DNA of 64,000 nt from an uncultured Clostridia bacterium (GTDB taxonomy: Bacteria; Bacillota; Clostridia; Oscillospirales; Acutalibacteraceae): contig CANQFC010000003.1 in the NCBI GenBank assembly GCA_947598155.1, positions 186,001-250,000 of the forward strand, read 5' to 3'. A program made the position numbers and the translations under genes. Below are positions 36,014 to 52,570 of this stretch, one piece after another. The number at the start of each line of letters is the position of its first letter. The stretch's first letter is position 1. The notes beneath the pieces were generated by a model. That model had not been told where the DNA came from, did no database searches, and worked only from the letters and a program-made list of their open reading frames with translations.

Positions 36014-38731
36014 CTACTTTCCACAGCAATTTTTGTACTTCTTGCCGCTCCCGCATGGGCAAGGCTCGTTTCTGCCGATTTTCTTACCTTTTTTTACCGG
36101 CTGTTTTTTCTCGCTCCCGTCGGAAGCTCCGCTTGCGCCCGTAATTTTCGCTGTCTGCTCGCGTTTAATATCCTCTTCGCTCTTGAGACGGAAGGTGAGA
36201 AGCATAGTCGCGGTGCCCTCTCTTATTAACGCGTTCATTTCGTCGAAATAGTCAAAACTCTCCATTCGGAAAGCGACAACGGGGTCTTGCTGACCGTAGG
36301 AACGCAGGTAAATACCCCTTTGAAGCTCATCCATAGCGTCCAGGTGGTCCATCCAGTGGACGTCAACATTGCGCAGCAGTACCTTACGCTCAATCTCATT
36401 CATAATTTTTTCGCCGTATTCCCTGTACTTTGCGTCATAGGTATCAAGCGCTTTTTTGCGGAAATAGTCGGTATATTCTTTCGACGAATTAAAATCGGGC
36501 GTTTCGTCCTCACAGAGGAATTTCAGCTTGGCTGTAAGCCCCGCCTTGTTCCAATCTTCGGGGTTGTTTGACTCGGGGCAGAAAAATTCTACCGTTTCCG
36601 AGATATATTTTTCAATCATCGAAATAATTGTGCCGTGAATATCCGCGCCGTCGAGCACCTTGTTGCGCTCGCCGTAAATAACCTCTCTCTGCTTGCTCAT
36701 AACGTCGTCAAATCGAAGAACGTTGCGCCTTGCCGCGAAGTTGTTGCCCTCAACGCGCTTTTGAGCGCTTTCAATGGTGTTGGTAAACATCTTGGTTTCA
36801 AGCGGAAGTTCGCCTGCCGCGCCGAAGGAGTCAAGAATATTGAAGAATCTGTCGCCTGCGAAGAGCCTTAAAAGCTCGTCCTCGGCGGAAAGATAAAACT
36901 TGCTCCTGCCCGGGTCGCCCTGGCGCCCCGAACGGCCGCGGAGCTGGTTGTCTATTCGTCTTGACTCGTGCCTCTCGGTACCGATGATGAAAAGACCGCC
37001 CGCCTCCTTTACTTTTTCGGCCTCGTCCCTAAGCTGTTCCTTATATTTGTTTTCAAGCTCGCGGTAAGTGTTTCTCGCGTTGATAATATCCTGATTGTCC
37101 GTATCGGCAAAGCCCGTTGCCTCCTCAATGAGCTCTTCGGGGAACTGCATCCGCCTCATTTCGGCTTTAGCCATAAAGTCGGGGTTGCCGCCGAGGATAA
37201 TATCCGTGCCTCGGCCCGCCATATTTGTGGCAATAGTTACGGCTCCCAAAGCGCCCGCCTGCGCAATGATTTCGGCCTCTTTTTCGTGATACTTCGCGTT
37301 GAGGACGGTGTGCTTGATGCCCCTTCGCTTGAGCGCGGCCGAGAGAGCCTCGCTCTTTTCAATGCTTATTGTGCCGACAAGCACGGGCTGGCCTTTTTTG
37401 TTGCACTCAAGAATTTGCTCAATAATAGCGTTGAATTTCGCGTTTTCTGTTTTGAAAAGCACATCCGGCTCGTCTACTCTAATCATCGGCTTATTCGTTG
37501 GGATTTCAATGACGTCAAGTGTGTAAATCTCCTGAAATTCGCCTTCCTCGGTCATTGCGGTACCCGTCATACCGGAAAGCTTTTTGTAAAGCCTAAAATA
37601 ATTTTGGAATGTTATAGTGGCGAGCGTCTTTGATTCACGTTCAACCTTGACGTTCTCTTTGGCCTCAATAGCCTGATGAAGACCGTCGGAATAGCGCCTG
37701 CCGTGCATAATTCTGCCGGTAAATTCATCGACAATAAGCACCTGCCCGTCGCTGACAACATAGTCGACATCACGTTTCATAACGCCGATAGCCTTTATAG
37801 CCAAGTCAATGTGGTGCTGAATCGTGAGGTTTTCCATATCGGCAAGGTTTTCAACGCCGAAAAACGCCTCTGCCTTTTTGATACCGTTTTTGGTCAGCGA
37901 CGCCGTTCCCGCCTTTTCATCTACAATGTAGTCGTCGTCTTCGCCGACAATATCTTCATAATTTGTTTTTGCCTCAATTTCCTTGACCTTGAACATTTTG
38001 AGCTTTTTGGCAAAATCGTTCGTAATCTTGTAAAGATCGGTTGATTTGTCGCCCATACCAGAGATTATGAGGGGCGTCCTCGCCTCGTCTATAAGGATTG
38101 AGTCAACCTCGTCTACAATCGCGAAATTGTGCCCTCTCTGAACTCTCTGCTCGGCGTAAATTACCATATTGTCACGCAGATAGTCAAAGCCCATCTCATT
38201 GTTGGTGCCGTACGTTATGTCGCAGGCATATGCCGCGCGGCGCTGGTCGCCGTCCAAATCGTGAACGATAAGCCCCACCGAAAGACCCATAAACCTGTAA
38301 AGCTTGCCCATCCATTCGGAGTCGCGGCGCGCAAGGTAGTCGTTAACGGTGACAATGTGAACGCCTTTTCCGGTAAGAGCGTTTAAATATGCGGGAAGAG
38401 TCGCAACGAGCGTTTTGCCCTCGCCCGTTTTCATTTCGGCTATTCTGCCCTGGTGAAGAACTATGCCGCCGATAATTTGTACGGGGAAGTGCCTCATATT
38501 AAGCACGCGGGCGGACGCCTCTCTCAGAGCGGCAAACGCCTCGGGCAAAATGTCGTCAAGCGTTTCGCCGTTTTGCAGCCTTTCTTTAAATTCGGGTGTT
38601 TTGGCCTGAAGCTCTTCGTCGGAAAGCTTTTTGTAATCTTCCTCAAGCTCAAGAACCTTTTTCTGAATAGGGATTATTCTTTTGATTTCACGAGCGGAGT
38701 AATCTCCGAAAATCTTTTTAAAAAGTGACAT
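36014..38731 (-). CDS. secA: Preprotein translocase ATPase SecA
   Basis: SecA is the motor that drives proteins through SecYEG. The 905 residues carry the DEAD-type nucleotide-binding domain 1 ([41 protein letters not shown]), the preprotein cross-linking domain, domain 2 with [14 protein letters not shown] and the [20 protein letters not shown] region, and the C-terminal zinc finger [16 protein letters not shown] that binds SecB-like partners or phospholipid. Length is normal. It is transcribed leftward, ahead of three envelope genes. The 340-base gap upstream holds a dispersed repeat. Confidence 0.98.
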
Positions 38732-39004: not shown

Positions 39005-39033
39005 TTGCAAAAGATCATAAAATTTGGTATTCT
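39005..39033 (+). promoter_or_regulatory. Promoter of the SCP2-aminotransferase-transketolase operon
   Basis: TTGCAA (39005-39010), 17 bases, TATTCT (39028-39033), about 40 bases before the first gene. Confidence 0.65.
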
Positions 39034-39073
39034 TTAAATGAACATATATATTTTAAAAAACGGAGGCACAACT

Positions 39074-39835
39074 ATGACTGATGCTAAGACAATGGCCTAC
39101 ATAAATATGTACGCCGTACTCGGAACATTGGAAAACCTTTGTGAGCTTGACTCAAAGGCAAAAGAGATAATTTCTTCTCTTAATAAGCCCGTTTCTTTGG
39201 CGTTTGAGGTAAAGGACGGCCCCGCCGCCACGCTGACTTTCAGTCAAAACGGGTGCCGTATGGAGGACGGCGTCAACAATCCCGATATAAAAATTCCCGT
39301 TTCCTCGTGTGAAAAGTTCAATTTGATTATTGACGGCAAGGCGACTCCCGTTCCCACAAAGGGAATTGCGAAAATAGGTTTTCTCCTTAAAACCTTCACC
39401 GCGCTTACCGACAGGCTGACGGAGCTTATGCGTCCGTCTCAGGAGGCGTTAACGGACAGGGATTTTTTCATTCTTTCAACCCGTTTGACTTTCTATACGA
39501 TTTCAGTTGCCATTTCGCAGATAGCAAATCAGGACGAAATAGGCAAGGCGAGCGCATCTTATATGGTAGACGGCGATATTCTAATCGGCATAAAGGGCGG
39601 CGACGCCGCGACGGTGCGTGTTAAAAACCACCGCCTTGTCACAATAAAAAAAGCTCCCGAAAAGCCGAGGGCGATTATGACTTTTGCTGATTACGGCCTG
39701 GCCTCGGCTCTTTTCAACGGCAAAGTAAACGCGCTTGAGGAGCTTTGCAGGGGAACGGTTGAAATCCACGGTATGGCTTCTATGATAGACAATATGAACA
39801 GACTTCTCGACAGAGTCGGTCTTTATTTGGCATAA
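39074..39835 (+). CDS. Double SCP2-like domain protein (copy 1)
   Basis: The 253-residue protein appears to contain two SCP2 (sterol carrier protein 2)-like folds, which bind lipids or other hydrophobic ligands. Half one: VSLAFEVKDGPAATLTF, PDIKIPVSSCEKFNLIIDGKA. Half two: ILIGIKGGDAATVRVKN, IMTFADYGLASALFNGKVNALEELCRGTVEIHG. The GK...G.(I/V).(I/M)(D/H)G pattern is the typical SCP2 end. There are no transmembrane segments or signal peptide, so it is cytoplasmic. I chose the ATG at 39074, seven bases after CGGAGG (39061-39066); the upstream ATG at 39038 precedes that site. It is paralogous to the protein at 43176-43985, at the other end of the same operon. The ligand is unknown. Confidence 0.7.
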   Translation: MTDAKTMAYINMYAVLGTLENLCELDSKAKEIISSLNKPVSLAFEVKDGPAATLTFSQNGCRMEDGVNNPDIKIPVSSCEKFNLIIDGKATPVPTKGIAKIGFLLKTFTALTDRLTELMRPSQEALTDRDFFILSTRLTFYTISVAISQIANQDEIGKASASYMVDGDILIGIKGGDAATVRVKNHRLVTIKKAPEKPRAIMTFADYGLASALFNGKVNALEELCRGTVEIHGMASMIDNMNRLLDRVGLYLA

Positions 39836-39849
39836 GGGAGGAAATTATA

Positions 39850-41115
39850 ATGAGTAAATATCCGGAATATAATCACGATAAAGGCCGCGAGTATTTTGAA
39901 AGAGCGCTCAAGGTTATTCCCGCGGGCATTTACGGCCACTTAGGTCCGTCCGAAGGGCTTTGGATACCGATACAAAAATGGCCGTTTTATTCCGTAAAGG
40001 CGCAGGGCTCATATTTTTGGGACGCCGACGGCAACAAATACATTGATTATATGTGCGCTTACGGCCCGAATGTGCTCGGCTATAACGACCCCGATGTTGA
40101 CGCCGCGGCAAAGGCTCAGCTTGAAAAGGGCAACTGCACCACGGCGCCGTCAACGGTTATGGTTGAATGCGCCGAAAACCTTGTAGACACGGTAGCCTCC
40201 GCTGATTGGGCGTTTTTCTGCAAAAACGGCTCGGATACTACAACTCTTGCGGTAATGTCGGCGAGAGCGCATACGCACAAGAGAAAAATTATTTTCTTAA
40301 AAGGATATTATCACGGCGATTTTCAGTGGGCGCAGAAAATCGACTATCCCGGTATTTTGCCCGAAGACGTGTGCCATAATCTTGTAGCACCGTGGTTCGA
40401 TATTGACGCGCTTCAAAAGCTCTATGACGAAAACGACGGCGACATAGCGGGTCTTATAGCCCAGCCGTATGACCACGGCAATTTTAAGGATAACGAAGTC
40501 GCCTCAAAGGAATACTGGCGTTCAGTCCGCAAATGGTGCGACGACCACGGCGTTGTGCTTATTTTTGACGATGTGCGCACGGGTTTCCGCCTTGATATTC
40601 AGGGGTCGGACCATTATTACGGCATTAAGGCGGACCTTATCTGTTTCTGCAAGGCGCTTGCCAACGGCTACAATATGTCGGCTCTTTGCGGCGGCGAGCA
40701 TATGAAAGCCACCGTTTCGGGTATGACATACACAGGCTCATACTGGATGAGCGCGGTTCCGTTTGCGGCATGCATTGCCTGCATTAACAAAATGAAGGCT
40801 CTTGACGTACCCTCGCTTTTCCGTAAAATGGGCACGAAGGTTACCGACGGATTTAAAGCGGCGGCGCAGAATAACGGCTTTAATCTTGTAGTTTCGGGCG
40901 AGCCCGCTCTGTTTTATTTAAGAATAGCCGACGATGACAGCCTTATGCTCCATCAGGAGTGGATTGCCGAGTGCGTTTCAAGAGGACTGTTCCTTGCGTC
41001 TCATCACAACCATTTTATCAACGCCTCCCTGACGGAAGACGACATCAAGCTTTCGGTTGACATTGCGGAGGACGCGTTTAACACAGTCCGCAAAAACCAC
41101 CCTGAGCTTAGATAA
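39850..41115 (+). CDS. Class III PLP-dependent aminotransferase (GSA aminomutase-like)
   Basis: The 421-residue enzyme belongs to the aminotransferase class III group, which includes glutamate-1-semialdehyde aminomutase and omega-aminotransferases. The PLP lysine is in CFCKALANGYNMS, the aspartate that binds the pyridine nitrogen is in IFDDVRTGFR, and FCKNGSDTTTLA corresponds to the phosphate-binding NGSEA motif. GYYHGDFQWA matches the conserved GxYHG segment. It starts 15 bases after the SCP2-like gene with a GGGAGG site. It is unlikely to serve tetrapyrrole synthesis here, since no hem genes are near; an amino or keto sugar, or a transketolase product, is a more natural partner. Substrate unknown. 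Confidence 0.85.
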   Translation: MSKYPEYNHDKGREYFERALKVIPAGIYGHLGPSEGLWIPIQKWPFYSVKAQGSYFWDADGNKYIDYMCAYGPNVLGYNDPDVDAAAKAQLEKGNCTTAPSTVMVECAENLVDTVASADWAFFCKNGSDTTTLAVMSARAHTHKRKIIFLKGYYHGDFQWAQKIDYPGILPEDVCHNLVAPWFDIDALQKLYDENDGDIAGLIAQPYDHGNFKDNEVASKEYWRSVRKWCDDHGVVLIFDDVRTGFRLDIQGSDHYYGIKADLICFCKALANGYNMSALCGGEHMKATVSGMTYTGSYWMSAVPFAACIACINKMKALDVPSLFRKMGTKVTDGFKAAAQNNGFNLVVSGEPALFYLRIADDDSLMLHQEWIAECVSRGLFLASHHNHFINASLTEDDIKLSVDIAEDAFNTVRKNHPELR

Positions 41116-41145
41116 TACTCGGTTAATAATATTATAATGAATCAC

Positions 41146-41160
41146 GGGGAAAGCCCCTTA
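41146..41160 (+). repeat. Small hairpin between aminotransferase and transketolase genes
   Basis: GGGGAAAGCCCC followed by TTA. The CCCCTTA end matches the end of the larger repeats at 50799-50940 and 63073-63170. It sits just ahead of the AAGGAGG site of the next gene and could affect its translation. Confidence 0.5.
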
Positions 41161-41193
41161 TCAAATACAAGGTAAAAAAGGAGGAATTTTTTC

Positions 41194-42075
41194 ATGGCTA
41201 ATTTATCAAAGCAGGAGTGGACGGCGCTTGAGAACAAGGCCTATGAACTGCGAAAGCTCTGTATGCAGACTACAATGTGGGCAGGCAGCGGTCATATCGG
41301 CGGAGGGCTCAGCGTTATGGATCTTTTGACGGTGCTTTACTACAAGTACCTCAATATTAAGGTTGACGAGCCCCTTTGGGAGGACAGAGACCGTTTTATT
41401 TTAAGCAAGGGCCATGCGGCAATTGCTTATGCCCCCGTTCTGTGCGATAAAGGCTTTAACGATAAAGATCTTCTTAAAACCTTTAACCTTTCGGGGTCAA
41501 AAATGGGTATGCACCTCGACTCAAACAAGATAGTGGGCGTTGACGCTTCAACAGGGTCGCTTGGCCACGGCGCTTCCATCGCGGCAGGCACCGCTCTTGC
41601 CGCAAGGCTTATGAATAAGGATTATTTAACTTATGTTGTAACGGGCGACGGCGAATTGGGCGAAGGCTCAAACTGGGAAGCCTTTATGACGATGAATCAT
41701 TATGAACTCTCAAATTGTATAGTTTTTATCGACCGCAATCACTGTATGATTGACGGGCCGACGGAAGAAGTTATGAAGCTTGAACCGCTTGATGACAAAA
41801 TGCGCGCATTCGGGTTTAACGTAATTTGCGTAGACGGCAACAACATAGGAGAGCTTTGCGAGGCCATTGATAAAGCCAGAGAAAGAAGCGGTGAAAAATG
41901 CGCTCCTACCTGCGTGCTTATGGACACGGCAAAGGGCGCCGGAATTAAGTCTATTGAGGGCGATTACCACTGCCACTATATGGCGCTTGACGATGAAACT
42001 TACGATAAATACAGTAAAGAGCTTGAAGAGGATTACAAGGCAAGACTTGCAAGAGCGGAAAAGGAGGGCAAATAA
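41194..42075 (+). CDS. Transketolase, N-terminal (TPP pyrophosphate-binding) subunit
   Basis: Split transketolases consist of an N-terminal and a C-terminal polypeptide. This 293-residue protein is the first: GSGHIGGGLSVMDLL at the start, LSKGHAAIAYAPVL, GSLGHGASIAAG, and the TPP-binding GDGELGEGSNWEA...IVFIDRN motif. It carries the magnesium and diphosphate sites; the C-terminal partner follows after two bases. The enzyme transfers a two-carbon ketol unit between sugar phosphates, but split forms often have special substrates. A strong AAGGAGG precedes the start. Confidence 0.92.
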   Translation: MANLSKQEWTALENKAYELRKLCMQTTMWAGSGHIGGGLSVMDLLTVLYYKYLNIKVDEPLWEDRDRFILSKGHAAIAYAPVLCDKGFNDKDLLKTFNLSGSKMGMHLDSNKIVGVDASTGSLGHGASIAAGTALAARLMNKDYLTYVVTGDGELGEGSNWEAFMTMNHYELSNCIVFIDRNHCMIDGPTEEVMKLEPLDDKMRAFGFNVICVDGNNIGELCEAIDKARERSGEKCAPTCVLMDTAKGAGIKSIEGDYHCHYMALDDETYDKYSKELEEDYKARLARAEKEGK

Positions 42076-42077
42076 TT

Positions 42078-43085
42078 ATGGCAGGCGGATTTGTTTATAA
42101 CGCGATTGACCAGACAGAGGTTGCCACCGCTGAAATTTACGGCAAGGCGATTACCGATATAATGTTAAAAGACCCAAAGGTTGTGGCTATTACCGCAGAC
42201 CTTGCGAAATCAACAAAACTCGGCGACGTTTTAAAGGTTTGCCCGGAGCGGGTTATTAACGTGGGCATTGCGGAACAGGATATGTTCGGCGTAGGCGCCG
42301 GTATGGCAAAAGCCGGTATGATACCGTTCATCTCGGGCTTTTCGGCATTCACCTCAATGCGCGCCTGCGACCAGCTGCACACAGATATTTGTTACCAGAA
42401 CGTGAACGCCAAAATTATCGCCACTCACGCGGGCACGTCTTTCGGTCAGGCGGGTTCAACGCACCACGCCATAGTAGATATAGCCATTACAAGGGCTATG
42501 CCCAATTTAACGGTTATTGTTCCCGCGGACGGAATTGAAACCGCGAACGCGGTTAACGCCGCTTATGCCAACAACGGCCCTTACTATATAAGAATTAACC
42601 GGGGCTTTGACCGTGTTCTTTACAATTCTCAGGATTACGACTTTGAGGTAGGCAAGGCGGTTGAGATTCACCCCGGCACCGATATAACGGTCATTGCCTG
42701 CGGCTCGTGTGTGTTCCAGGCAAAACAGGCGGCGGAATTTCTTGAGAATGCCGACGGGCTTAAGGTTCGCGTTCTCAATATGCACACCATAAAGCCCATT
42801 GACGAAGAGGCTATATTAAAGGCCGTTATGGATACAAGAAGAATTATTACCGTTGAGGACCATTCGGTAATCGGGGGCTTAGGCTCTGCCGTTGCCGAGG
42901 TTATGGCGCAGGCAGGCAAGGGCTGTGCGTTTAAAATGCTCGGACACCGAGGGTTTGCCCCGATAGGACTTCATGAAGATATTATGTCCGAAGTCGGTAT
43001 TGACGCCAACGGTATTATTGATGCCGTGCGTGAGGTTATGAAGGCCGACTTTGAGGAAGACGATAACTGGGACGACGACGTTTAA
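42078..43085 (+). CDS. Transketolase, C-terminal (pyrimidine-binding) subunit
   Basis: This 335-residue partner of the preceding gene contains the transketolase central and C-terminal domains. The catalytic glutamate that activates the TPP ring is in VINVGIAEQDMFG. ATHAGTSFGQAGSTHHAIVDIAITR and the C-terminal VEDHSVIGGLGSAVAE are typical of this family and of 1-deoxyxylulose-5-phosphate synthases. It ends in an acidic tail (EEDDNWDDDV). The two halves are separated by two bases, so equal expression is expected. Confidence 0.92.
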   Translation: MAGGFVYNAIDQTEVATAEIYGKAITDIMLKDPKVVAITADLAKSTKLGDVLKVCPERVINVGIAEQDMFGVGAGMAKAGMIPFISGFSAFTSMRACDQLHTDICYQNVNAKIIATHAGTSFGQAGSTHHAIVDIAITRAMPNLTVIVPADGIETANAVNAAYANNGPYYIRINRGFDRVLYNSQDYDFEVGKAVEIHPGTDITVIACGSCVFQAKQAAEFLENADGLKVRVLNMHTIKPIDEEAILKAVMDTRRIITVEDHSVIGGLGSAVAEVMAQAGKGCAFKMLGHRGFAPIGLHEDIMSEVGIDANGIIDAVREVMKADFEEDDNWDDDV

Positions 43086-43158
43086 TAAGAGCGCCTTAGG
43101 TTCAGTAAGGGCTTGCCCCGTCAATATAGACGCGGGGTATCTTGCCTAAGTTATATCG
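43084..43158 (+). repeat. Dispersed intergenic repeat, copy B
   Basis: AATAAGAGCG start, GGGCTTGCCCCGTC, an inner hairpin GCCCCGTC...GACGCGGGG, and the conserved end TTGCCTAAGTTATAT (43142-43156), directly before the AAAGGAG site of the next gene. Confidence 0.65.
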
Positions 43159-43175
43159 GAAAGGAGTCTGATTAA

Positions 43176-43985
43176 ATGCCCAAACAGGAAGAGCTTTATT
43201 CAAATAAAATATTCTTTAATGCCGCTTTGCCTTTAATTAAGGTGCTCGCGCAGGACGTTCCTTCGCTTAAAAAGCAGTATGAAAAGGTGCACGCCGTAAT
43301 TCAGGTAAGCGCGCTTGACCCGCAGGCCGAGGGCGGCAAAATCGGGATGCATTACGTTGTTAACGGCGCCGATGATTGGCTCGTTCACCTGAACGCCGTT
43401 GACCCTAACCCCCATGTGGAGCTTGAATTTAAGTCCGTGGAGGCGATGAACGCTTTTTTCAAAGGTAAAATGTCGCCCGCGACACTCCCGAAAATGAAGG
43501 GCATTGTAAAAAATTTCGGTGCGTTTAAGGCGTTCATTATGTCTTTGCTTAAAATGTCAAGCGTACTCTCCGCGACTGAGATTCCGGAAAAAGAAGAGGA
43601 CAAAACGCTTATGGTTAAGTGTATGTTCTATCTTTTGACGAGCGGTATAAGTCAGCTTAACAAAATGGGACATCCCGAAATTCACGAATGGGCGGCAAAA
43701 TCGCCCGACCGCGTCTATGCGCTCGCGGTAAACGGCCACCCTGAGGTTGCGGCGTTTATCCGCGTAAAGGCTGGTAAATCAAGGGCGGGCAGAGGCGAAT
43801 ATAAGCGCGCAATGCCGTTCTTTACGCTTAGATTTGACTCGTTTGACTCGGCACTCGGAACACTTCTCGGCAAGGACGATATGCTTACAGCCGTAAAGCA
43901 GGGGCATATAATTATGGACGGCGCTCCGGAATTCGGCGGTCAGTTCGGCGGCTTTATGCTTGAAATCGGCGCGCTGGCGAAATAG
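43176..43985 (+). CDS. Double SCP2-like domain protein (copy 2)
   Basis: The 269-residue protein resembles the one at 39074-39835 in plan. Half one: AVIQVSALDPQAEGGKIGMHYVVNG and ELEFKSVEAMNAFFKGK. Half two: FTLRFDSFDSALGTLLGK and TAVKQGHIIMDGAPEFG, the typical SCP2 ending. No membrane segment or signal. Its start has an AAAGGAG site. Together the two paralogues enclose the aminotransferase and the split transketolase, so they probably act on the same pathway, for example by binding a hydrophobic intermediate or by holding the enzymes together. That is inference. Confidence 0.7.
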   Translation: MPKQEELYSNKIFFNAALPLIKVLAQDVPSLKKQYEKVHAVIQVSALDPQAEGGKIGMHYVVNGADDWLVHLNAVDPNPHVELEFKSVEAMNAFFKGKMSPATLPKMKGIVKNFGAFKAFIMSLLKMSSVLSATEIPEKEEDKTLMVKCMFYLLTSGISQLNKMGHPEIHEWAAKSPDRVYALAVNGHPEVAAFIRVKAGKSRAGRGEYKRAMPFFTLRFDSFDSALGTLLGKDDMLTAVKQGHIIMDGAPEFGGQFGGFMLEIGALAK

Positions 43986-44018: not shown

Positions 44019-44044
44019 CGGGGAACCCTTTTAAGGGTTCCCCG
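44019..44044. repeat. Near-perfect 26-bp palindrome
   Basis: CGGGGAACCCTT (44019-44030) and AAGGGTTCCCCG (44033-44044) with a 2-base loop. It may end transcription of the SCP2 operon although no T run follows. The GGGGAACCC motif recurs near 32980. Confidence 0.65.
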
Positions 44045-44396: not shown

Positions 44397-45830
44397 TTAT
44401 ATATTTTCACGCTGTTTTAAAACGGCGGAGTGAACGTCCTCTTTTGTTTTGCCCGTCAACTTATAGAAGAAGAACGGAACTCCCGCGAGGAACATCATAA
44501 TTCCGTGGAAAATCGTGTAGAAGAAAAGAAGCAGAACTTTGGTATGGAACGACTGTTCAAGGTAAACAAGACCTGTTTCTGTTTCAAGCGGACGGATATA
44601 ACCGATAAGCGAATCCGCGTCGAAAAGTATCTGCGGAGCGATATACCCCGCAACGGCGCTGCTGATAGTCGTTCCTATGCCGATAACAAACGGCAGCGAG
44701 GCGTCAAGGCGCTTGCCGTTTGTCTGAAGCTCAAGCGATTCGAGCACGTCGGCCTGAAACATTGTCGGGAGAAGGTTTGACGCGCCGAACTGAATGCCTA
44801 TAAGGAAAAGCGAAATTATGAAGATAATCTGCAAAATGCCGCTCCCGTGTTTGAAATAAAGATACCCCGCGCCGAAAGCGAGAGTGTTGATAATAACAGA
44901 GTATATGCCGCTCGCTATATACAGCACCCTTGAATCAAATTTCTTTAAAAGGAAGTTGATTACAAGCATACCTACTGCCGTGCCTATACCCGTGGGCAGG
45001 CCGAAGAAAAGGAATTTTGACGGGCTCCCCAAAAGCGCGACCGCAAGGTAAATGCCCATATATGTAGCGATGTTTCTGAAAGTTTTAATGAAATCCGAAG
45101 CAATAATCGTCCAAGCGTACTTGTTGGAAAGAATGTCAAAAATGCCTATAAGCGGATTCTTTTTTTCCTGAACGCAGACAACTCTTTCACGCACAAGTTT
45201 CATAGCGAGAAGCATTGATATTACTCCGCAGGCGCTGCAAAGCGAAGCGCCGACAATGTATTGAAGAGCAAGGTCGTTTTTCCAAATAGCGTTAAGAACA
45301 AGTATAACGACCAGCGGAGCGGAATTGCCCACGGCCGAGGAAATGCTCCTGAAAGAAATAATGCTGTCACGCTCTTTAAGATTAGGCGTCATAAAGTTTG
45401 CAATCATATTAAGACAGCCGCAGAAGTTCGTTACTATCGTCCAGCCGAGCGCAACTATTAAAAGGTACGCCAAAAGCACATTCCCCGTAAGAAACGACGG
45501 GGCGAAGAACGTGAGTACAAGCAGTATGCCCGCCGGAACGGTCGCAATAAGAATCAGCGGGCGGAATTTACCTGATTTTGACGGCTTTCTGCCGTCAATA
45601 TACATTGAAACAAAGAAATTGATTATAAATCCCGCAATGGGAAGAATCAAGTTGAAAAACGAGATGTAATTCTTGCTGACCTGCAATACGTCGGAGAGAT
45701 AATTATTCCTGTAATTGCCTATCATACCTGTCATCATCGTGTAAAAGAAAAGCGATGCGACATACATAACAAATTCGGGTTTTTTAACATTCTTTTGAGC
45801 TGCGGAGGCCGTTAGGGTTTTTTCTGACAT
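44397..45830 (-). CDS. GPH-family sugar:cation symporter (MFS), first copy
   Basis: The glycoside-pentoside-hexuronide family imports sugars with sodium or protons. The 477-residue protein has about twelve transmembrane segments and the cytoplasmic motif DGRKPSKSGKFRP between TM2 and TM3, characteristic of the family. The start is the ATG at 45830, six bases after AAAGGTG; the GTG at 45839 is less likely. It is divergent from the GH36 gene, so it probably imports the alpha-galactoside or similar substrate of that enzyme. Confidence 0.88.
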   Translation of the reverse strand: MSEKTLTASAAQKNVKKPEFVMYVASLFFYTMMTGMIGNYRNNYLSDVLQVSKNYISFFNLILPIAGFIINFFVSMYIDGRKPSKSGKFRPLILIATVPAGILLVLTFFAPSFLTGNVLLAYLLIVALGWTIVTNFCGCLNMIANFMTPNLKERDSIISFRSISSAVGNSAPLVVILVLNAIWKNDLALQYIVGASLCSACGVISMLLAMKLVRERVVCVQEKKNPLIGIFDILSNKYAWTIIASDFIKTFRNIATYMGIYLAVALLGSPSKFLFFGLPTGIGTAVGMLVINFLLKKFDSRVLYIASGIYSVIINTLAFGAGYLYFKHGSGILQIIFIISLFLIGIQFGASNLLPTMFQADVLESLELQTNGKRLDASLPFVIGIGTTISSAVAGYIAPQILFDADSLIGYIRPLETETGLVYLEQSFHTKVLLLFFYTIFHGIMMFLAGVPFFFYKLTGKTKEDVHSAVLKQRENI

Positions 45831-46000
45831 AACCGTCACCTTTCAAAATAATATTATTTTTAAATAATGGGTTCACTTATGTTTATAATACCGCTTTTTT
45901 GATAAGTTTTCTATTGACGCGGGAGTAGAATATAAGCGCAAATAATAGTGCAAATGCAACAACTTTACGCGCGGCAACAGCCGATTGTGAGAAAGAAATC

Positions 46001-46015
46001 TTGCCGAAGTTATAT
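46001..46015 (+). repeat. Isolated copy of the repeat end TTGCCGAAGTTATAT
   Basis: It abuts the -35 box of the GH36 promoter by one base. A second stray copy with TTACCG lies at 44388-44402, over the stop codon of the symporter. Confidence 0.6.
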
Positions 46016-46016
46016 A

Positions 46017-46045
46017 TTGAAAACCTATATCATCTATGGTAGAAT
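46017..46045 (+). promoter_or_regulatory. Promoter of the GH36-GH4-PfkB genes
   Basis: TTGAAA (46017-46022), 17 bases, TAGAAT (46040-46045), about 60 bases before the GH36 start, which has a GGGGTGG site. Confidence 0.8.
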
Positions 46046-46104
46046 AAATACGGCTTAGGAAAATTAAAAAAACAAAACAATAAATTTTTAAAAGGGGTGG
46101 CGTT

Positions 46105-47781
46105 ATGTATAAATTTTACGCGGAAATCTTAAAAAACAACGAACTATGCGGTCACAGCGCGGAGGAAAACGAGGACTTTAAGTTTGAATTTACCGAAGAC
46201 GGCGGTCACATTAAGGGAACGGTTACCGCCTTTACGGATTTGACCTTCCGCTCGCTCTCTTTAAAACGCGGGCGCGAATTCGGCTTTGACGACCTTTTCT
46301 ACGCAAACGGCTACCAAGCGTGGACTACCTCGCGTGAGTTTTGCCGAACCGACGTGCTTAAAGGCGTAATGCCGCTCAGCAAAATTTCAAATTTTACCGA
46401 AGATTTAACGGGGATGTCGGGCGACTATAAATTTGCCTCATACGGCAGGGAAGGCGTTTTTCACTCGTACACATACTGCTATTTCAGAACCCGCGGGCAA
46501 AGGGCGATAAATCTTTACGGCTCAAAATCCGAAAGGCAGGGCTTTACCGTTTTTGAGGCCGATATGAACGAAAATACGTTTAAAATCTATAAGGACATTG
46601 ACGGGCTGGAGCTTAAAAAAGGCGACAAATACGAGGTTTTTGACATAATAGAGCTCAGCGGCGATTTTGACGAGGTAATGGACAGATATTTCTTCGACTT
46701 TGTCGGATGCAAAAAGCCCGAAAAAACGCGCCTTGCGGGATATACGTCGTGGTATAACTATTTTCAGAAAATAAACGAGCAGATAATTCTTCGGGATTTA
46801 AACGGACTGGAGAGAGCGGGCGAATACGCCAATATTTTTCAGGTGGACGACGGCTATGAATCGGCTGTCGGCGACTGGCTTAGGGTAGACCCTCAAAAAT
46901 TTCCCAACGGAATGAAATATATTGCCGACAAAATCCATGAAAAGGGCTATAAAGCGGGCATCTGGCTCGCTCCGTTTAATGCGCAGAAGAGCTCCGCTAT
47001 TCTTGCCGCCCACCCCGACTGGGTAATATGCGACAATGAAACGGGCAAACCCTTGTTAGGCTGCGCGGGCTGGGGCGGAGCTTATACGTTTGACATTTAC
47101 AATGAGGAATTCAGAGCATATCTTAAAAGCGTGTTTAATACCTATTTGAACGAATGGGGATACGATATGGTAAAGCTGGATTTCCTTTATTCGCAGTGTA
47201 TGCAGCCCCGAAACGGAAAAACAAGGGGTGAAATTATGTGCGACGCCGTCGATTTTTTAAGAGAATTGGTCGGCGACAAGATGATTCTCGGCTGCGGAGT
47301 GCCGCTGGGCGCTTGTATGGGCATATTTGATTTTTGCCGAATAGGCTGTGACGCCAACAAAATTTTCGCCGGCCCGTTTTACAACAAACTCGGCGTAAAT
47401 TGCGAAATTCCGTCGTGCCAAAACGCAATCAACAACGCGATTTTCCGCAACCATCTTGACGGCAGAGCCTTTATAAACGACCCCGACGTCTTTTTCCTTA
47501 GAAACACAAATATCAAATTTACATTACAGCAAAAATTGCTACTCGGCAAAATCAACGCGGTTTGCGGAAACGTACTTTTCGTATCCGACAACGCGGGCGA
47601 TTACGATGAAAAAACATTAAGCTATTTAAAAGACTTTTTCAAGGACAAGAATTATAAAATAAATATGGCGGAGTATGTCAGCCGTGACGTTATACTGCTT
47701 TCGTTTACGGAGGACGGCGAGGAAAAACAGCTTAAATTTAATATCAAAAACGGCAACAGCAATATAGGCAAGGTTGTGTGA
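46105..47781 (+). CDS. Glycoside hydrolase family 36 (alpha-galactosidase-like)
   Basis: GH36 retaining enzymes release alpha-linked galactose or related sugars. The (beta/alpha)8 domain is recognised by FQVDDGYESAVGDWL, AGIWLAPFNA, the nucleophile aspartate in YDMVKLDFLYS and the acid/base aspartate region CRIGCDANK, preceded by an N-terminal beta-sandwich (about 1-200). At 558 residues it is shorter than classical GH36 enzymes (about 730) and lacks part of the N-terminal domain, as in some clades of unknown specificity. No signal peptide; cytoplasmic. It reads with GH4 and PfkB downstream. Confidence 0.85.
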   Translation: MYKFYAEILKNNELCGHSAEENEDFKFEFTEDGGHIKGTVTAFTDLTFRSLSLKRGREFGFDDLFYANGYQAWTTSREFCRTDVLKGVMPLSKISNFTEDLTGMSGDYKFASYGREGVFHSYTYCYFRTRGQRAINLYGSKSERQGFTVFEADMNENTFKIYKDIDGLELKKGDKYEVFDIIELSGDFDEVMDRYFFDFVGCKKPEKTRLAGYTSWYNYFQKINEQIILRDLNGLERAGEYANIFQVDDGYESAVGDWLRVDPQKFPNGMKYIADKIHEKGYKAGIWLAPFNAQKSSAILAAHPDWVICDNETGKPLLGCAGWGGAYTFDIYNEEFRAYLKSVFNTYLNEWGYDMVKLDFLYSQCMQPRNGKTRGEIMCDAVDFLRELVGDKMILGCGVPLGACMGIFDFCRIGCDANKIFAGPFYNKLGVNCEIPSCQNAINNAIFRNHLDGRAFINDPDVFFLRNTNIKFTLQQKLLLGKINAVCGNVLFVSDNAGDYDEKTLSYLKDFFKDKNYKINMAEYVSRDVILLSFTEDGEEKQLKFNIKNGNSNIGKVV

Positions 47782-47826
47782 CGAAAATACAGCGCGGAAA
47801 GGAACGGCTTACGCCGTATTGAATAA

Positions 47827-49194
47827 ATGAAAATCACGGTAATTGGCGGCGGCGGAGTCCGTTCAATGTTTTTGGCAAAAAGCATATCGCATAGGGCCCG
47901 GGAGCTAAACATAACGGAGCTTGTCTTTATGGACATAGATTCCGAAAAACTGAATATTTACGGCAAAATGGCGTCGCAGGTCGTAAAAAAACTTGCGCCC
48001 GGCGTAAAATTTTGCTTAACCGAGGACCCGGTTGCGGCAATCAGCGGCGCGGATTACATAATAACAACTATCCGCGCGGGCGGCGACAAAATGCGCTGCC
48101 GTGACGAGCGGATTGCTTTGGATTTGGGTTTGTTGGGACAGGAAACGACGGGTGCGGCCGGCTTTTCGTTCGCAATGCGCAGCATTCCTGCGCTGGCACA
48201 GTACTGCGAATACGTTAAAAAATACGCAAAGAGCGGGTGCGTTTGCTTTAATTTTACGAATCCCGCAGGCGTTGTGTCGCAGACTCTCAGCGATATGGGC
48301 TATGATTTTTCAATCGGTATTTGCGACGCTCCTTCGGGAATGGTTCGCTCGTTTGAGGAGTTTTTAAACATTCCTGCGGGAACATCGCAGGCTTTCTGCT
48401 ACGGGCTTAATCACCTGTCGTTTTTCAATGAAATAATTTCAAACGGCGAAAATATAGTTCCTAAGCTCATAAACTGCGGCGAGGCTTACACAAAAACCGA
48501 TTTACGGTATTTTCGCAAAGAGGATTTGTCAAAAAAACAGTTTATTCCCAATGAATATCTCTATTATTTTTACGAGCCGGAAAAATCGGTTCAAAACATC
48601 TTAAACGCGCCCGAAACAAGGGGCGAGCAGATAGAACGCATCAACCGCGAAATGACAAAAGAGCTAAAAAATACAGATATTGAAAACGACTTTGAAAAGG
48701 CGCTCGCTGTTTTTGAGCATTACTACGGTATGCGTGAAAACACATATATGGCGAGCGAAACGGGCGAAAAACGGGATAAGAAATATAAGTTTGACCTATA
48801 CTCGCAAAACGATTCGGGCTATGCGGGCGTTGCCCTCGGAATAATAGAATCGCTTATCGGCATAACCGAGAGGCCGTTTATAGCCTGCGTGCCGAATAAG
48901 AACCGCGCTTTGAGCTTTCTTGACGAAACGGACACGGTAGAAATCACCTGCGAAATAAAAAACGGAAAAGCGTTGCCGATAGCCCCCCGCACCGTGTCAA
49001 GGGAAAACGCCGAGCTTATTTTAAAAGTCAAGGAATATGAGCGGCTGGCGTCAAGGGCAATAAGGTTTCACGACAGGTCGGCGGCGGAAGAGGCGCTGGC
49101 GGTTCACCCGCTTGTGAACAGCAGAAAGGCGGCTCAAACTCTTGTGAGCGCTTACGGAGAACTTAATAAAGACTATTTTGGAGAGTGGAAATGA
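47827..49194 (+). CDS. Glycoside hydrolase family 4 (NAD- and Mn-dependent)
   Basis: GH4 enzymes hydrolyse alpha- or beta-glycosides, often 6-phosphorylated, by an oxidation-elimination mechanism. The protein has the N-terminal NAD fold (ITVIGGGGVRSMFL), TTIRAGGDKMRCRDERIAL, FNFTNPAGV, the metal-ligating cysteine in GICDAPSG and the histidine in GLNHLSFF. The length (455) is usual. The family includes 6-phospho-glucosidases, alpha-galactosidases and alpha-glucuronidases, which cannot be told apart here. Its stop overlaps the start of pfkB-like gene (ATGA). Confidence 0.9.
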   Translation: MKITVIGGGGVRSMFLAKSISHRARELNITELVFMDIDSEKLNIYGKMASQVVKKLAPGVKFCLTEDPVAAISGADYIITTIRAGGDKMRCRDERIALDLGLLGQETTGAAGFSFAMRSIPALAQYCEYVKKYAKSGCVCFNFTNPAGVVSQTLSDMGYDFSIGICDAPSGMVRSFEEFLNIPAGTSQAFCYGLNHLSFFNEIISNGENIVPKLINCGEAYTKTDLRYFRKEDLSKKQFIPNEYLYYFYEPEKSVQNILNAPETRGEQIERINREMTKELKNTDIENDFEKALAVFEHYYGMRENTYMASETGEKRDKKYKFDLYSQNDSGYAGVALGIIESLIGITERPFIACVPNKNRALSFLDETDTVEITCEIKNGKALPIAPRTVSRENAELILKVKEYERLASRAIRFHDRSAAEEALAVHPLVNSRKAAQTLVSAYGELNKDYFGEWK

Positions 49195-50099
49195 AGGATT
49201 TTGTAGCGTCATTCGGAAAATTAAACTGTGATTTGCTTTTTGCCGGTATGCCCCGAATCCCCAACGAGGGCGAGGAACTGTACGCGAAGGATTTTAAGCT
49301 GTGCTTAGGGGGAGGACTGCCCGCCACTATGATAAACTGCTCAAGGCTGGGCGTTCCCGCGAAACTCGGCACGTTTTTGGGCGGCGATATGTTTTCGGAT
49401 TTCGCCCGCGGCGAGCTTGAAAAGTACGGCGTTGATTATACCGCTTTCGAGAGCAAGGAATATCCGCTCAATATCACCTGCGCCGTTATCACCGAAAACG
49501 ACCGAACCTTTGTCTCCTACGGCGGAACGGAAAAGTACAGTGATGATATGCTTGAAAAAATTTACGGCGTATTAAAGGGCGCGAAAATTGTCGCTATGCA
49601 GGAAAAAATTCTCCCCGTCTACGAACAGCTCAAAAAGGACGGAACGATTTTGGTGCTTGATACGGGCTATTCCGACGATATGTCGATAGATAACTTGAAA
49701 GATTACATAAAAATTGCCGATTACTACACTCCTAATATTGACGAAACGGAAAAAATAACGGGAACAAGGGATTACAAAAAAGCGCTTGATTTTCTCCGCG
49801 ATTATTTGCAAAAACCGATAGTAAAGCTCGGCAGGGACGGGTGCGCCGGTTTTGACGGCGGTTATTTTGTCATTCCAGAGATTGAGGAGTTTTCCTGCGT
49901 TGACGCCACGGGAGCGGGCGACGCGTTCCTTGCAGGCTTTATAACCGGGCTTTTTAGGGGCGAGGACTTCCGAAAATGTATTCTTATGGGCAATATAACG
50001 GGCGGAAAATGCGTTACGGGCGTGGGCTGTCTTACGGAATATTTAACAAATGACGGCTTAAATGATTATGTAAAAAGATACTTTACTAAAATATTATGA
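49191..50099 (+). CDS. PfkB-family carbohydrate kinase
   Basis: This ribokinase-like kinase has the N-terminal glycine pair motif (CLGGGLPATMINCSRLG) and the catalytic/anion hole motif DATGAGDAFLAGF. About 302 residues, cytoplasmic. The substrate may be a sugar released by GH36 or GH4. The ATG at 49191 overlaps the GH4 stop as ATGA and has GGAGAG before it; a GTG at 49185 is also in frame. Confidence 0.9.
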   Translation: MKDFVASFGKLNCDLLFAGMPRIPNEGEELYAKDFKLCLGGGLPATMINCSRLGVPAKLGTFLGGDMFSDFARGELEKYGVDYTAFESKEYPLNITCAVITENDRTFVSYGGTEKYSDDMLEKIYGVLKGAKIVAMQEKILPVYEQLKKDGTILVLDTGYSDDMSIDNLKDYIKIADYYTPNIDETEKITGTRDYKKALDFLRDYLQKPIVKLGRDGCAGFDGGYFVIPEIEEFSCVDATGAGDAFLAGFITGLFRGEDFRKCILMGNITGGKCVTGVGCLTEYLTNDGLNDYVKRYFTKIL

Positions 50100-50133: not shown

Positions 50134-50796
50134 GTGATTACGCTGGACCTCAAAACACATCATAAGCCGACGTTTGACAATATCCCTTCCGAAAAACGCG
50201 CAAGGGTCATTGACGCGGCGACAAAGGAATTTGCGAAAAAAGGCTATCACGACGCCTCCGTCAGCGCTATTGCGGCAAAAGCGAATATCAGCGTCGGAGC
50301 GATTTATAAATATTTTGAGAACAAACAGGACTTGTTTTTAACAATAATTGACGACAGCATCAGCCGTATTGAAAATCTTTTGCTCGGCCTTATAAAAACC
50401 GATGAAGACGTGATGATAAAGGTTGAGAAAATCCTTCGTGAAATCATATCCGTTTCACGTGAGGACGGGGTTTTAATCAACCTGTACAATTCAATGACGT
50501 CAATCAACGATAAACGGCTGGCAAGCCAGTTTGCCACGGAGATGGAGCGTGTAACGGCGGAAATTTATATACAGGCAATAACCGAGGGGCAGGAAAACGG
50601 TGAAATCCGAAAAGATATTGACCCTACCGTTGCGGCGTTTTTGATTGACGATTTGTTTATGTCGCTGCAATTTTCTTTTGCCAACGACTATTATATTCAG
50701 CGTTTCAGGCTCTACTGCGGCGAAGACGCAACAAACAGAGAGGAATTTATAATACGCGAAGTACTTAAATTTGTTAAATCGGCGCTTAAAGCATAA
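50134..50796 (+). CDS. TetR/AcrR-family transcriptional regulator
   Basis: The N-terminal helix-turn-helix (RARVIDAATKEFAKKG, then ISVGAIYKYFENKQDLF) is typical; the rest is a ligand-binding helical domain. It may control the neighbouring sugar genes. The start is unclear: the GTG at 50134 lies inside the best ribosome-binding site (GAGGTGA, 50131-50137), which would suit a CTG at 50143. A weak promoter TTTACT-17-TAAAAT (50082-50110) lies in the end of the pfkB-like gene. Confidence 0.88.
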   Translation: MITLDLKTHHKPTFDNIPSEKRARVIDAATKEFAKKGYHDASVSAIAAKANISVGAIYKYFENKQDLFLTIIDDSISRIENLLLGLIKTDEDVMIKVEKILREIISVSREDGVLINLYNSMTSINDKRLASQFATEMERVTAEIYIQAITEGQENGEIRKDIDPTVAAFLIDDLFMSLQFSFANDYYIQRFRLYCGEDATNREEFIIREVLKFVKSALKA

Positions 50797-50798
50797 TT

Positions 50799-50940
50799 GA
50801 TATAACTTAGGCAAGAGAGGTCCCTGCTTTTATAGGCGGCGGGTTCCGTTTTTGGAATCAGCGGGGTTTGGTCTTCGCTGATTTCTCAGTGCGGTTTACA
50901 CTGCGCCTTGCCGCGCCACTTGCGGGGTAAGCCCCTTATT
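50799..50940 (-). repeat. Dispersed intergenic repeat, copy C (inverted)
   Basis: On the minus strand this copy runs from TTCAATAAGGGGCTTACCCC to TTGCCTAAGTTATAT (50814-50800), including CGGAACCCGCCGCCTATAAA shared exactly with copy A. Its other end overlaps the TTGAAAGGAG site of the next gene, so it may influence that gene's expression. Confidence 0.75.
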
Positions 50941-50956
50941 GAAAGGAGAATGGCAA

Positions 50957-52570
50957 ATGTCAGAGCCAAAGTATGTAATCGCCTATGATATAGGCACTAC
51001 GGGTGTTAAAACCTGCGTTTTTTCAATTTCGGATAAAATTGAACTTCTTGCGGCGGCAAGCGAGGGATATAAGCTTTACGTTATGCCGAACGGCGGCGCG
51101 GAGCAGGACCCCGACGAATGGTGGAACGCGATGCGCAACAGCACAAACATCGTTATGAAAAAATCCAAAATCAACAAGGAAAAGATTACCGGAATTTCGT
51201 TCTGCTCTCAAATGCAGGGCGTCGTTTTAGTAGATAAAGACGCAAAGGCCGTTCGCCGGGCGTTCAGCTATATGGATCAGCGCGCGACAAACGAGCTTCG
51301 CGACGGAATGGGCGGCGGAATACAAATTGCGGGCGGAAACGCGGTTAAGGTTGTAAAATCGCTTATGTACACGGGCGCGGCGCCTCTCTCTGTTAAAGAC
51401 CCTATTTGGAAATATAAATGGACGCAAAAAAACGAACCCGAGAACTTTAAAAAGGTTTACAAATGGCTTGACGTAAAAGAATACCTCATCGCGAGGATGA
51501 CGGGCGAGTTTGTTATGACTCATGACTCCGCGTTTTCAACGATGATTTACGATATTAAAAAGAAAACGTGGAGCGAAGAGATGTGCAGAATGCTCGGCGT
51601 AAATATGGAACACCTCGCAAAAATCGTTAAATCGACCGACAAAGTCGGCGAGCTTTCCGAAAAGGCCGCTGAGGAATTAGGGCTTGCCGAGGGTACCGCC
51701 GTGTTCGGCGGCGGCGGAGACGCGTCGCTTATAGGCGTGGGCGCAGGTTCGGTTGAGCTTGGCGACACGCACATTTATCAGGGTACTTCGGGCTGGGTGT
51801 CAACGGTAGTTGACAAATCCATTGTAGACACAAACTCAATGATTGCGGCTATCGTCGGCGCTAAAGACGGCTATTACAATTACTTTGCGGAGCTTGAGAC
51901 GGCCGGCAAGTGCGTTGAATGGGTAAAGGATCACCTGGCGCTGGACGAAATCGACGTTTATTTGGATAAGAGCCACAACCTTAAACGCTCAAAAGGCGAT
52001 ATGGAAACCGTATATACCAATCTTTTTGAGTATATGGCCGCGGTAATAAACGAGGTTCCGGCAGGCTCAAACGGCGTTATTTTTACTCCGTGGCTTCACG
52101 GCAACCGCTGCCCGTTTGAGGACCCGAACGCGAGAGGAATGTTCTTTAATATCAGTCTTGATACGGGAAAATCGGAGATGATTCGCGCCGTTTACGAGGG
52201 CGTTTGTTTCCACCTGCGCTGGTTCCTTGAAACCGAGGACAAGAAAATCAAGACGTCTGACACAATAAGGTTTGTGGGCGGCGGCGCTCTTTCGGACGTA
52301 ACCTGTCAGATTTTGGCGGACTGCACAGGCAGAACCGTTGAAACCGTTGACAGTCCGCAGAACATCGGCGCGGTAGGCGCGGCTATTGTTATTGCGGTCG
52401 GCACCGGAATCATAGACGACATTACGGACGCTAAAAAGTTTATTCCGGCGTCGAAAACCTTTAAGCCGAATTTCGCGCACAAGGCGGTTTACGACCGAAA
52501 CTATAAAGTATATAAAAATCTTTATAAATCAAATAAAGATAACTTTGCCGATTTAAACGGGCAGTCTTAA
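50957..52570 (+). CDS. FGGY-family carbohydrate kinase (xylulokinase-like)
   Basis: FGGY kinases phosphorylate ketoses or polyols such as xylulose, ribulose, erythritol and glycerol. The protein has the phosphate-1 motif AYDIGTTGVKTCVFS, the conserved AEQDPDEWWNAM, the catalytic aspartate in FSYMDQRA and the C-terminal FVGGGALSDVTCQILAD. The length (537) is a little above xylulokinase. The start at 50957 follows AAAGGAG; the TTG at 50939 is inside that site. Next to a split transketolase and a GPH symporter, a ketose or pentulose substrate is plausible. Confidence 0.88.
   Translation: MSEPKYVIAYDIGTTGVKTCVFSISDKIELLAAASEGYKLYVMPNGGAEQDPDEWWNAMRNSTNIVMKKSKINKEKITGISFCSQMQGVVLVDKDAKAVRRAFSYMDQRATNELRDGMGGGIQIAGGNAVKVVKSLMYTGAAPLSVKDPIWKYKWTQKNEPENFKKVYKWLDVKEYLIARMTGEFVMTHDSAFSTMIYDIKKKTWSEEMCRMLGVNMEHLAKIVKSTDKVGELSEKAAEELGLAEGTAVFGGGGDASLIGVGAGSVELGDTHIYQGTSGWVSTVVDKSIVDTNSMIAAIVGAKDGYYNYFAELETAGKCVEWVKDHLALDEIDVYLDKSHNLKRSKGDMETVYTNLFEYMAAVINEVPAGSNGVIFTPWLHGNRCPFEDPNARGMFFNISLDTGKSEMIRAVYEGVCFHLRWFLETEDKKIKTSDTIRFVGGGALSDVTCQILADCTGRTVETVDSPQNIGAVGAAIVIAVGTGIIDDITDAKKFIPASKTFKPNFAHKAVYDRNYKVYKNLYKSNKDNFADLNGQS

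Follow-up and report, generated by a model that had tools for sequence, protein, structure and literature searches.

Split transketolases dedicated to a single pathway are known from the catabolic operons for apulose-4-phosphate and sulfoquinovose, and we know of no SCP2 protein or FumI-type aminotransferase in either system. In prodigiosin synthesis, a thiamine diphosphate (ThDP) enzyme and then a class III aminotransferase, PigD and PigE, act consecutively on a lipid aldehyde. FumI is a mycotoxin-detoxifying enzyme, and hydrolysed fumonisin is an analogue of sphingoid bases. In this study, we analysed a window of 64,000 nucleotides from an uncultured Clostridia bacterium (contig CANQFC010000003.1, positions 186,001 to 250,000). 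The window contains an operon in which two SCP2-like proteins enclose a FumI-type class III aminotransferase and both halves of a split transketolase. This conserved operon suggests an undescribed way to break down (or make) sphingosine-like lipids.

The operon comprises five genes on the + strand, at window positions 39074-43985:

39074..39835, + strand: SCP2A, SCP2-like protein with two SCP2-like halves, 253 amino acids
39850..41115, + strand: AT1, class III aminotransferase of the FumI (aminopentol aminotransferase) group; nearest solved relative 6hbs, 3e-94
41194..42075, + strand: TKN, N-terminal half of a split transketolase (ThDP-binding; Pfam PF00456, 1.6e-39), with Asn98 replacing the Arg91-equivalent
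42078..43085, + strand: TKC, C-terminal half of the split transketolase (Pfam PF02779/PF02780)
42078..43085, + strand: residue changes within TKC, Ala125 at the Asp469-equivalent and Ala18 at the Arg358-equivalent
43176..43985, + strand: SCP2B, second SCP2-like protein, 269 amino acids

An initial annotation, made from the sequence alone, had described these same-strand genes as SCP2-like, class III aminotransferase, both transketolase halves and again SCP2-like, and our analysis confirms this; the operon is real. A single promoter for all five genes is plausible.

Scanning a species-level genome collection with AT1 gave 365 related stretches, of which the best 80 (72-96% identity) were analysed as loci. 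All five genes are present, in the same order and on the same strand, in 70 of these 80 loci, so the gene order that the initial annotation had singled out for checking is conserved. The end of the locus cuts the operon in eight others (L013, L031, L033, L044, L053, L059, L067, L077), and in two (L072, L078) SCP2A-AT1 is followed by other genes. The titles of these relatives are Clostridia-type, bar one labelled Bacteroides (L056), and include Eubacterium coprostanoligenes ATCC 51222 (L073). The five genes stay together better than their surroundings do: flanks vary by lineage, with the commonest outside families found in 21 to 24 of the 80 loci and secA in 22.

The set also extends beyond the family. 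In a phylum sample of 398 genomes, AT1 (threshold E at most 1e-90) was detected in seven, the source genome among them. Outside the family, L095 and L096 carry all five genes in order together with a TetR gene, and L099 carries all five in order (by tblastn) with a MurT gene before them. In L098, SCP2A-AT1-TKN-TKC follows a MurT gene and the contig ends inside TKC, while L097 has amino-acid permease-SCP2A-AT1 only. Two genomes hold the set in two places: G219, with SCP2A-AT1 (L100) and TKN-TKC-SCP2B (L219; tblastn), and the family member G022, with SCP2A-AT1-Fe-type alcohol dehydrogenase (L180) and TKN-TKC-SCP2B (L118). The retention of both halves in these two-place sets speaks for one shared function. 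TKC and SCP2B are found in G048 as well (L181; tblastn), and SCP2B and AT1 occur in the same 17 of the 60 family genomes. SCP2A-AT1 stands without a transketolase beside it in L072, L078, L097, L100 and L180. In the genome of L097 (G278), the best TKC-like match reaches only 33%, in a 698-amino-acid frame; thus, SCP2A-AT1 seems to act there without this transketolase. The permease gene of L097 (11473-12825), from a genome of 6.4 Mb, forms one row with SCP2A-AT1, with no transketolase adjoining. A MurT-type ligase is located directly 5' of SCP2A in both f21 genomes (L098 5434-6873, recognized by eye; L099 4624-6054, Pfam MurT_C).

The residues of the transketolase were scored by alignment against human transketolase and are given in E. 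coli numbering, where we take Arg358, His66, His100, Glu411, Phe437 and His473 to be the correct numbers for those positions. The numbers of R91, H26, H261, S385, F434, D469 and R520 come from the excerpted text of PMC5073344, and that of H461 from an excerpt of PMC3657141. The Asp469-equivalent is Ala in 74/74 scorable operon TKC copies (75 rows, one gapped), the Arg358-equivalent is Ala in 63 and Ser in 12 of the 75 copies, and the Arg91-equivalent is Asn in 78/78 scorable TKN copies (79 rows, one X). The residues for ThDP binding and catalysis are present: in scorable rows, TKN keeps the equivalents of His26, His66, His100 and His261 as well as the GDGE..N motif, and TKC keeps those of Ser385, Glu411, Phe434, Phe437, His461, His473 and Arg520. 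In six distant operon-type transketolases (L095, L096, L098, L099, G022, G219), position 469 is Ala in five and Ser in one, position 91 is Asn in all six, and the Arg358-equivalent is Gly, Gly, Ala, Ala, Arg and Arg, respectively. TKN residues 121-126 read GSLGHG in 78/78 scorable operon copies and in 6/6 distant ones, and the ordinary transketolases compared have GSLGQG.

As a control, we took one TKC-like match per genome from 30 genomes (28 family members lacking AT1, plus G278 and G219; 30 of 52 places, some of them DXS-like). Position 469 is D in 27 of these, N in two and A in one, and the sole Ala belongs to an operon-type transketolase in an operon-bearing genome (L183 of G219). The ordinary split transketolases of the family (n=3; one N chain partial) retain Asp469, Arg358 and Arg91. 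Position 385 is Ala in 22 of the 30 controls and Ser in the operon enzyme, which makes the latter more phosphate-friendly at that one position. In the source genome, PF00456 matches lie at three places: the operon transketolase, a separate split transketolase that retains Asp469 and Arg91, and a 622-amino-acid frame resembling DXS by eye. The operon enzyme was therefore rejected as the only or housekeeping transketolase, a case that the initial annotation had considered. DXS-like chemistry with a pyruvate donor was also rejected, since the transketolase histidines are kept and the DXS-like frame lies elsewhere in the genome.

The effect of such substitutions is documented in the laboratory. 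According to excerpts of one study, E. coli transketolase variants D469A and D469T show better activity with propionaldehyde, several D469 mutants take linear aliphatic aldehydes, and the reaction with propionaldehyde yields a 1,3-dihydroxy-2-ketone (PMC3657141). The propionaldehyde/glycolaldehyde activity ratio given there is 0.04 for the wild type, 0.20 for D469A and 0.38 for D469T. A second study, likewise in excerpt, describes the loss of the salt bridge to R91 in D469T (PMC5073344); the operon transketolase lacks both partners of that bridge, Asp469 and Arg91. Judging from these residues, its sugar pocket looks remodelled for greasy aldehydes. Because the histidines that bind the hydroxyketone are kept and Asp469 and Arg91 are lost, a 1,3-dihydroxy-2-ketone with a non-polar other side should be its natural product or substrate.

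On sequence grounds, AT1 is assigned to the FumI-type aminotransferases. A profile of 19 AT1 sequences gives 319.5 bits with FumI (6hbs) versus 176.7 bits with the best glutamate-1-semialdehyde (GSA) aminomutase, and the single sequence gives 306.2 versus 146.6 bits; the identities are 39% versus 31%. None of the NCBIfam cut-offs is reached by AT1 among the 25 best models listed. Its identification as a GSA aminomutase (GSAM) was rejected, as the HemL cut-offs are missed by far (TIGR00713, 185.8 of 527.3 bits; NF000818, 204.8 of 398 bits). We built a tree of 29 sequences, with AT1 from 11 of the 80 loci and six plasmid relatives fetched out of 28 records with a match. A fork supported at 96/99 (24 rows) unites the SCP2-linked aminotransferases, FumI and five of the six plasmid relatives, and leaves outside GSAM, a haloarchaeal sequence and AT2, a second class III aminotransferase treated below. 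Three branches lie inside this fork, namely AT1 with L095-L097 and G022, L098-L100, and FumI with the plasmid relatives; some deeper branches are long. FumI transfers the C2 amino group of hydrolysed fumonisin B1 to pyruvate, acting on an amino group that adjoins a C3 hydroxyl on a long chain (PMC2933618, in excerpt).

The plasmid relatives of FumI adjoin ABC transporters, TetR, aldehyde dehydrogenase, P450, kinases or aldolases, contexts with a catabolic look that favours breakdown. On a Novosphingobium capsulatum plasmid (NZ_CP140001, L101), a FumI-type gene (60% identity to FumI) has a class II aldolase on one side and a PfkB kinase on the other, and genes for TetR, aldehyde dehydrogenase and P450 are nearby; this plasmid set is a candidate aerobic counterpart of the pathway proposed below. 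In the Nonomuraea relative (L105), a class II aldolase-like stretch lies 1.6 kb away. On a Shinella plasmid (NZ_CP015744, L104), an alpha/beta fusion of alpha-ketoacid dehydrogenase, itself a ThDP enzyme, precedes the FumI-type gene by two genes, and an FGGY-family kinase follows about 3.7 kb on. A plasmid of the archaeon Haloprofundus (NZ_CP083664, L106) carries a class III aminotransferase, two ABC-transporter genes and then a protein annotated with a ceramidase N-terminal domain.

Regarding the outer genes, the SCP2 fold proposed by the initial annotation is firm in the C-terminal halves of both proteins, whose best fold matches are the SCP2-like domains of the SdsA1/Pisa1 alkylsulfatases and of human SCP-2L. 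Profile comparison of SCP2 halves reached at best 38% probability, and the SCP2 fold of the N-terminal halves, and with it a tandem plan, is putative. No sequence relative of SCP2A or SCP2B was found in the PDB below E 0.6. Both are putative lipid carriers.

From these three separate lines of evidence (AT1, transketolase and SCP2) we infer a pathway. In our estimate, there is a little less than an even chance that the operon serves to degrade or detoxify a long-chain 2-amino-1,3-diol, for which a sphingoid base, sphinganine for example, is the likeliest candidate. SCP2A and SCP2B would take the lipid out of the membrane and hold its chain. AT1 would then transaminate the lipid at C2, with a keto acid as the acceptor (pyruvate in the case of FumI), to give a 1,3-dihydroxy-2-ketone. 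The split transketolase would cut this ketone between C2 and C3, freeing a fatty aldehyde and handing the C2 unit to an aldose phosphate, and so to the pentose phosphate pool. A 2-amino-1,3-diol, the head group of sphingoid bases, is what amination of the C2 ketone of a 1,3-dihydroxy-2-ketone would give; AT1, being of the FumI type, is the expected enzyme for amination or deamination at C2, and SCP2 proteins are the expected carriers. Breakdown is favoured by the plasmid FumI contexts, by a TetR-adjacent kinase and fuculose-phosphate-type aldolase, and by Fe-type alcohol dehydrogenases beside AT1 (G022) and AT2. The lack of a transporter in the operon fits a substrate that enters membranes unaided. 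The initial annotation had envisaged an amino or keto sugar with a hydrophobic group as its carrier. The FumI-type aminotransferase and the lost acceptor-site residues point instead to the lipid itself as the 2-amino-1,3-diol/1,3-dihydroxy-2-ketone, so that the first interpretation is partly supported.

Several observations weigh against a sphingoid-base substrate. In the transketolase, the Arg358-equivalent is still Arg in G022 and G219, and the equivalents of Ser385, His461 and Arg520 are kept, leaving part of the phosphate site intact. This retained part fits a sugar-phosphate partner for the C2 unit and would also fit an ordinary phosphorylated acceptor. Moreover, kinship among the operon rows means that the residue counts cannot be taken as independent events. 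AT1 shares only 39% identity with FumI and stands on a separate branch of the tree, and the FumI substrate is a 1-deoxy base with no C1 hydroxyl (PMC2933618, in excerpt). Kinase and aldolase adjoin the FumI-type gene in only one of the five annotated plasmid contexts, SCP2 folds accept many ligands, and the operon contains no transporter, ceramidase or known sphingolipid gene.

A second set of genes is associated with the operon. It comprises AT2 (about 495 amino acids, nearest GSAM), a class II aldolase (about 408 amino acids, nearest fuculose-phosphate aldolase), an FGGY kinase nearest gluconate/xylulose kinases, and a TetR gene. A divergent AT2-aldolase pair abuts the operon in L028, L031 and L045 (as in G040), and in G057 by coordinates only. 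The pair lies about 3-5 kb from the operon in L007, L010, L011 and L013; several of these AT2-linked loci are close relatives. AT2 and/or the aldolase adjoin TetR-FGGY kinase in G002, G009, G021, G022, G034, G047, G189, G219 and L045, where genome search alone located the aldolase of G002, G034 and G047 and the AT2 of G047. The TetR gene adjoins the FGGY kinase in G002, G009, G021, G022, G034, G047, G003, G189 and G219, and the TetR beside the five-gene operon in L095/L096 is 31% identical to that of the window. In the source genome, a different contig (G000:C7) holds AT2 and the aldolase, with an Fe-type alcohol dehydrogenase alongside; a gene of this type adjoins AT1 in G022. On this contig (L114 9100-13455), the dehydrogenase, AT2 and a class II aldolase in two stretches form one row. 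A low-molecular-weight phosphatase (Pfam LMWPc) adjoins the FGGY kinase in three genomes (L045 1337-1834, L111 6108-6575, L113 8257-8727).

Among non-overlapping open reading frames in the flanks of the 80 loci, matches at E 1e-30 were found in seven loci for AT2 and the aldolase, and in one each for FGGY and TetR. The 60 family genomes contain AT2 in 18, the aldolase in 19 and FGGY in 18, compared with SCP2B and AT1 in 17. In a SecA tree of 58 of these genomes (G019 and G058 have no SecA at the cut-off), all 17 operon positives fall in one supported clade of 20, so that shared ancestry explains most of the co-occurrence within the family. The three members of this clade without the operon are G014 (89% complete), which lacks all these genes, G006 with the aldolase only, and G047, which keeps AT2, FGGY and aldolase. 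In the phylum sample, AT1 occurs in 7/398 genomes, AT2 in 6/398 and both in four (Fisher 5e-7, kinship uncorrected): both in f1, f21 (twice) and f94, AT1 alone in f20 (twice) and f33, and AT2 alone in f31 (twice). Altogether, the AT2/aldolase/FGGY/TetR module is probably linked to the operon. Its kinase and aldolase might handle a ketone of the 4-hydroxylated, phytosphingosine type like a ketose, phosphorylating it and then cleaving it to dihydroxyacetone phosphate and an aldehyde.

The remaining features of the window are the following:

36014-38731, strand opposite to the operon: secA, upstream of the operon, named from its own sequence
44019..44044, no strand assigned: terminator-like hairpin 3' of the operon, 11 pairs, found on both strands
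50134..50796, + strand: TetR-family regulator adjoining the kinase (Pfam TetR_N, 6e-17), probable member of the linked second module
50939..52570, + strand: FGGY carbohydrate kinase (Pfam FGGY_N, 2.4e-52), probable member of the linked second module

The hairpin has a poor T tail on the + strand, and 13 such sites compare with 11.0 expected in shuffles. The initial annotation had suggested that the FGGY kinase and a GPH symporter might feed the operon. The kinase, together with TetR (50134-52570), is a probable member of the second module and is thus probably linked through AT2 and the aldolase; the symporter was rejected as a partner, having one 28% match among the non-overlapping frames in the flanks of the 80 loci. 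The GH36, GH4, PfkB and second MFS genes of the window were also rejected, with no flank match at E 1e-30 in the 80 loci. The stretch 44397-50099, with the GPH-type symporter on the - strand and then melibiase-like (46105), GH4 (47827; Pfam) and PfkB kinase (49185) genes, all on the + strand, has the look of a common type of glycoside cluster and is not kept beside the operon.

The same chemistry could run forwards, as a serine-palmitoyltransferase-free synthesis of sphingoid bases in which the transketolase attaches a C2 unit, taken from a ketose phosphate, to a fatty aldehyde, AT1 aminates the resulting 1,3-dihydroxy-2-ketone, and the SCP2 proteins carry aldehyde and product. The AT1 and transketolase evidence suits this direction equally, and transketolase-transaminase cascades yield aminodiols in biocatalysis. 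That AT1 is strongly conserved (19 rows with a mean column identity of 86%) would also be in agreement with synthesis, as would the absence of a transporter and, in most of the 80 loci, of a recurring regulator beside the operon. However, the neighbours of the plasmid FumI relatives look catabolic, the linked kinase-aldolase module suits breakdown better, and the open-licence literature, as represented by the starts of abstracts, gave no report of sphingolipids made by these Clostridia. We consider synthesis unlikely.

A polar amino-ketose or aminopolyol pathway, with the SCP2-fold proteins as scaffolds or subunits and not as lipid carriers, appears improbable to a similar degree. It would account for the retained Ser385, His461 and Arg520 equivalents, and an FGGY kinase with a fuculose-phosphate-type aldolase is the usual ketose kit; class III aminotransferases can also aminate ketoses. 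Nevertheless, no scorable operon copy retains Asp469 or Arg91, the tree places AT1 with a lipid-amine enzyme, and two SCP2-fold proteins per operon are hard to explain in such a pathway. It is less probable still that the substrate is some other hydrophobic ketone or amine, be it a 1-deoxy base, an isoprenoid, an alkyl amine or a sterol derivative, and that the transketolase performs an unrelated C2 step. The FumI substrate, a 1-deoxy base in the excerpted source, and the loci with SCP2A-AT1 but no adjoining transketolase favour this view, as does the presence of the operon in E. coprostanoligenes (L073). This species is a cholesterol reducer. On the other side, the transketolase histidines for the hydroxyketone end are kept and point to a C1 hydroxyl, an aminotransferase and a transketolase give no obvious sterol chemistry, and known cholesterol reducers are far fewer than the 365 related stretches in one species-level collection. 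Finally, that an ordinary pentose-phosphate transketolase became the chance neighbour of an aminotransferase is hardly credible: the other, ordinary-looking transketolase of the genome is split too, but it retains Asp469 and Arg91, and the gene order is kept in 70/80 loci.

Returning to sphingoid-base breakdown, the wider claim is a transketolase-based route into or out of sphingoid bases that uses neither serine palmitoyltransferase nor sphingosine-1-phosphate lyase, which we put forward tentatively. It is with the same reserve that we suggest the make-up of this route, namely a natural D469A-like transketolase, a FumI-type aminotransferase and SCP2 carriers, found across gut and rumen Clostridia including E. 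coprostanoligenes. In the open-licence literature, covered through the starts of abstracts and with subscription papers and preprints outside its scope, we found no description of this gene set or of transketolase in sphingoid-base metabolism, in line with the undescribed pathway that had been proposed at the outset. If true, a textbook enzyme of sugar metabolism, transketolase, serves lipid metabolism here, and gut Clostridia, which are not known as sphingolipid bacteria, process sphingoid bases of the host, the diet or Bacteroides. Sphingoid bases act in signalling and can be lethal to Gram-positive bacteria; therefore, their removal would matter for host-microbe lipid exchange. E. coprostanoligenes ATCC 51222 (L073) is a named strain in which this reading can be tested directly, as it can with purified enzymes.

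Compared with known systems, the operon resembles PigD/PigE in combining a ThDP enzyme with a class III aminotransferase, a pair that belongs to another ThDP family on the PigD side and works without SCP2 proteins. The split transketolase of Carboxydothermus hydrogenoformans (6yaj/6yak) has the same two-chain layout and is the nearest solved relative of TKC (6yaj, 2.2e-90). Unlike the operon enzyme, it retains the Asp469 and Arg358 equivalents; it is active on aldehydes including glycolaldehyde and phenylacetaldehyde (PMC7661550, in excerpt). Like the laboratory E. coli variants D469A, D469T and S385Y/D469T/R520Q, the operon transketolase is altered at position 469 (Ala) and has in addition lost R91. 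The triple variant also alters Ser385 and Arg520, whereas the operon enzyme retains both equivalents. FumI of Sphingopyxis sp. MTA144 (PDB 6hbs/6hbv) is the closest solved relative of AT1 and shares with it the stretches IDYMCAYGPN and FCKNGSD and a YGH motif, where GSA aminomutase 6w80 has NSPVR. The FumI-type genes on five plasmids have no SCP2 or transketolase among their annotated neighbours (the own cluster of FumI lies outside this comparison). Finally, the SdsA1/Pisa1 alkylsulfatases and human SCP-2L contain a single SCP2-like domain each, whereas in the operon two proteins of putative two-domain plan enclose the enzymes.

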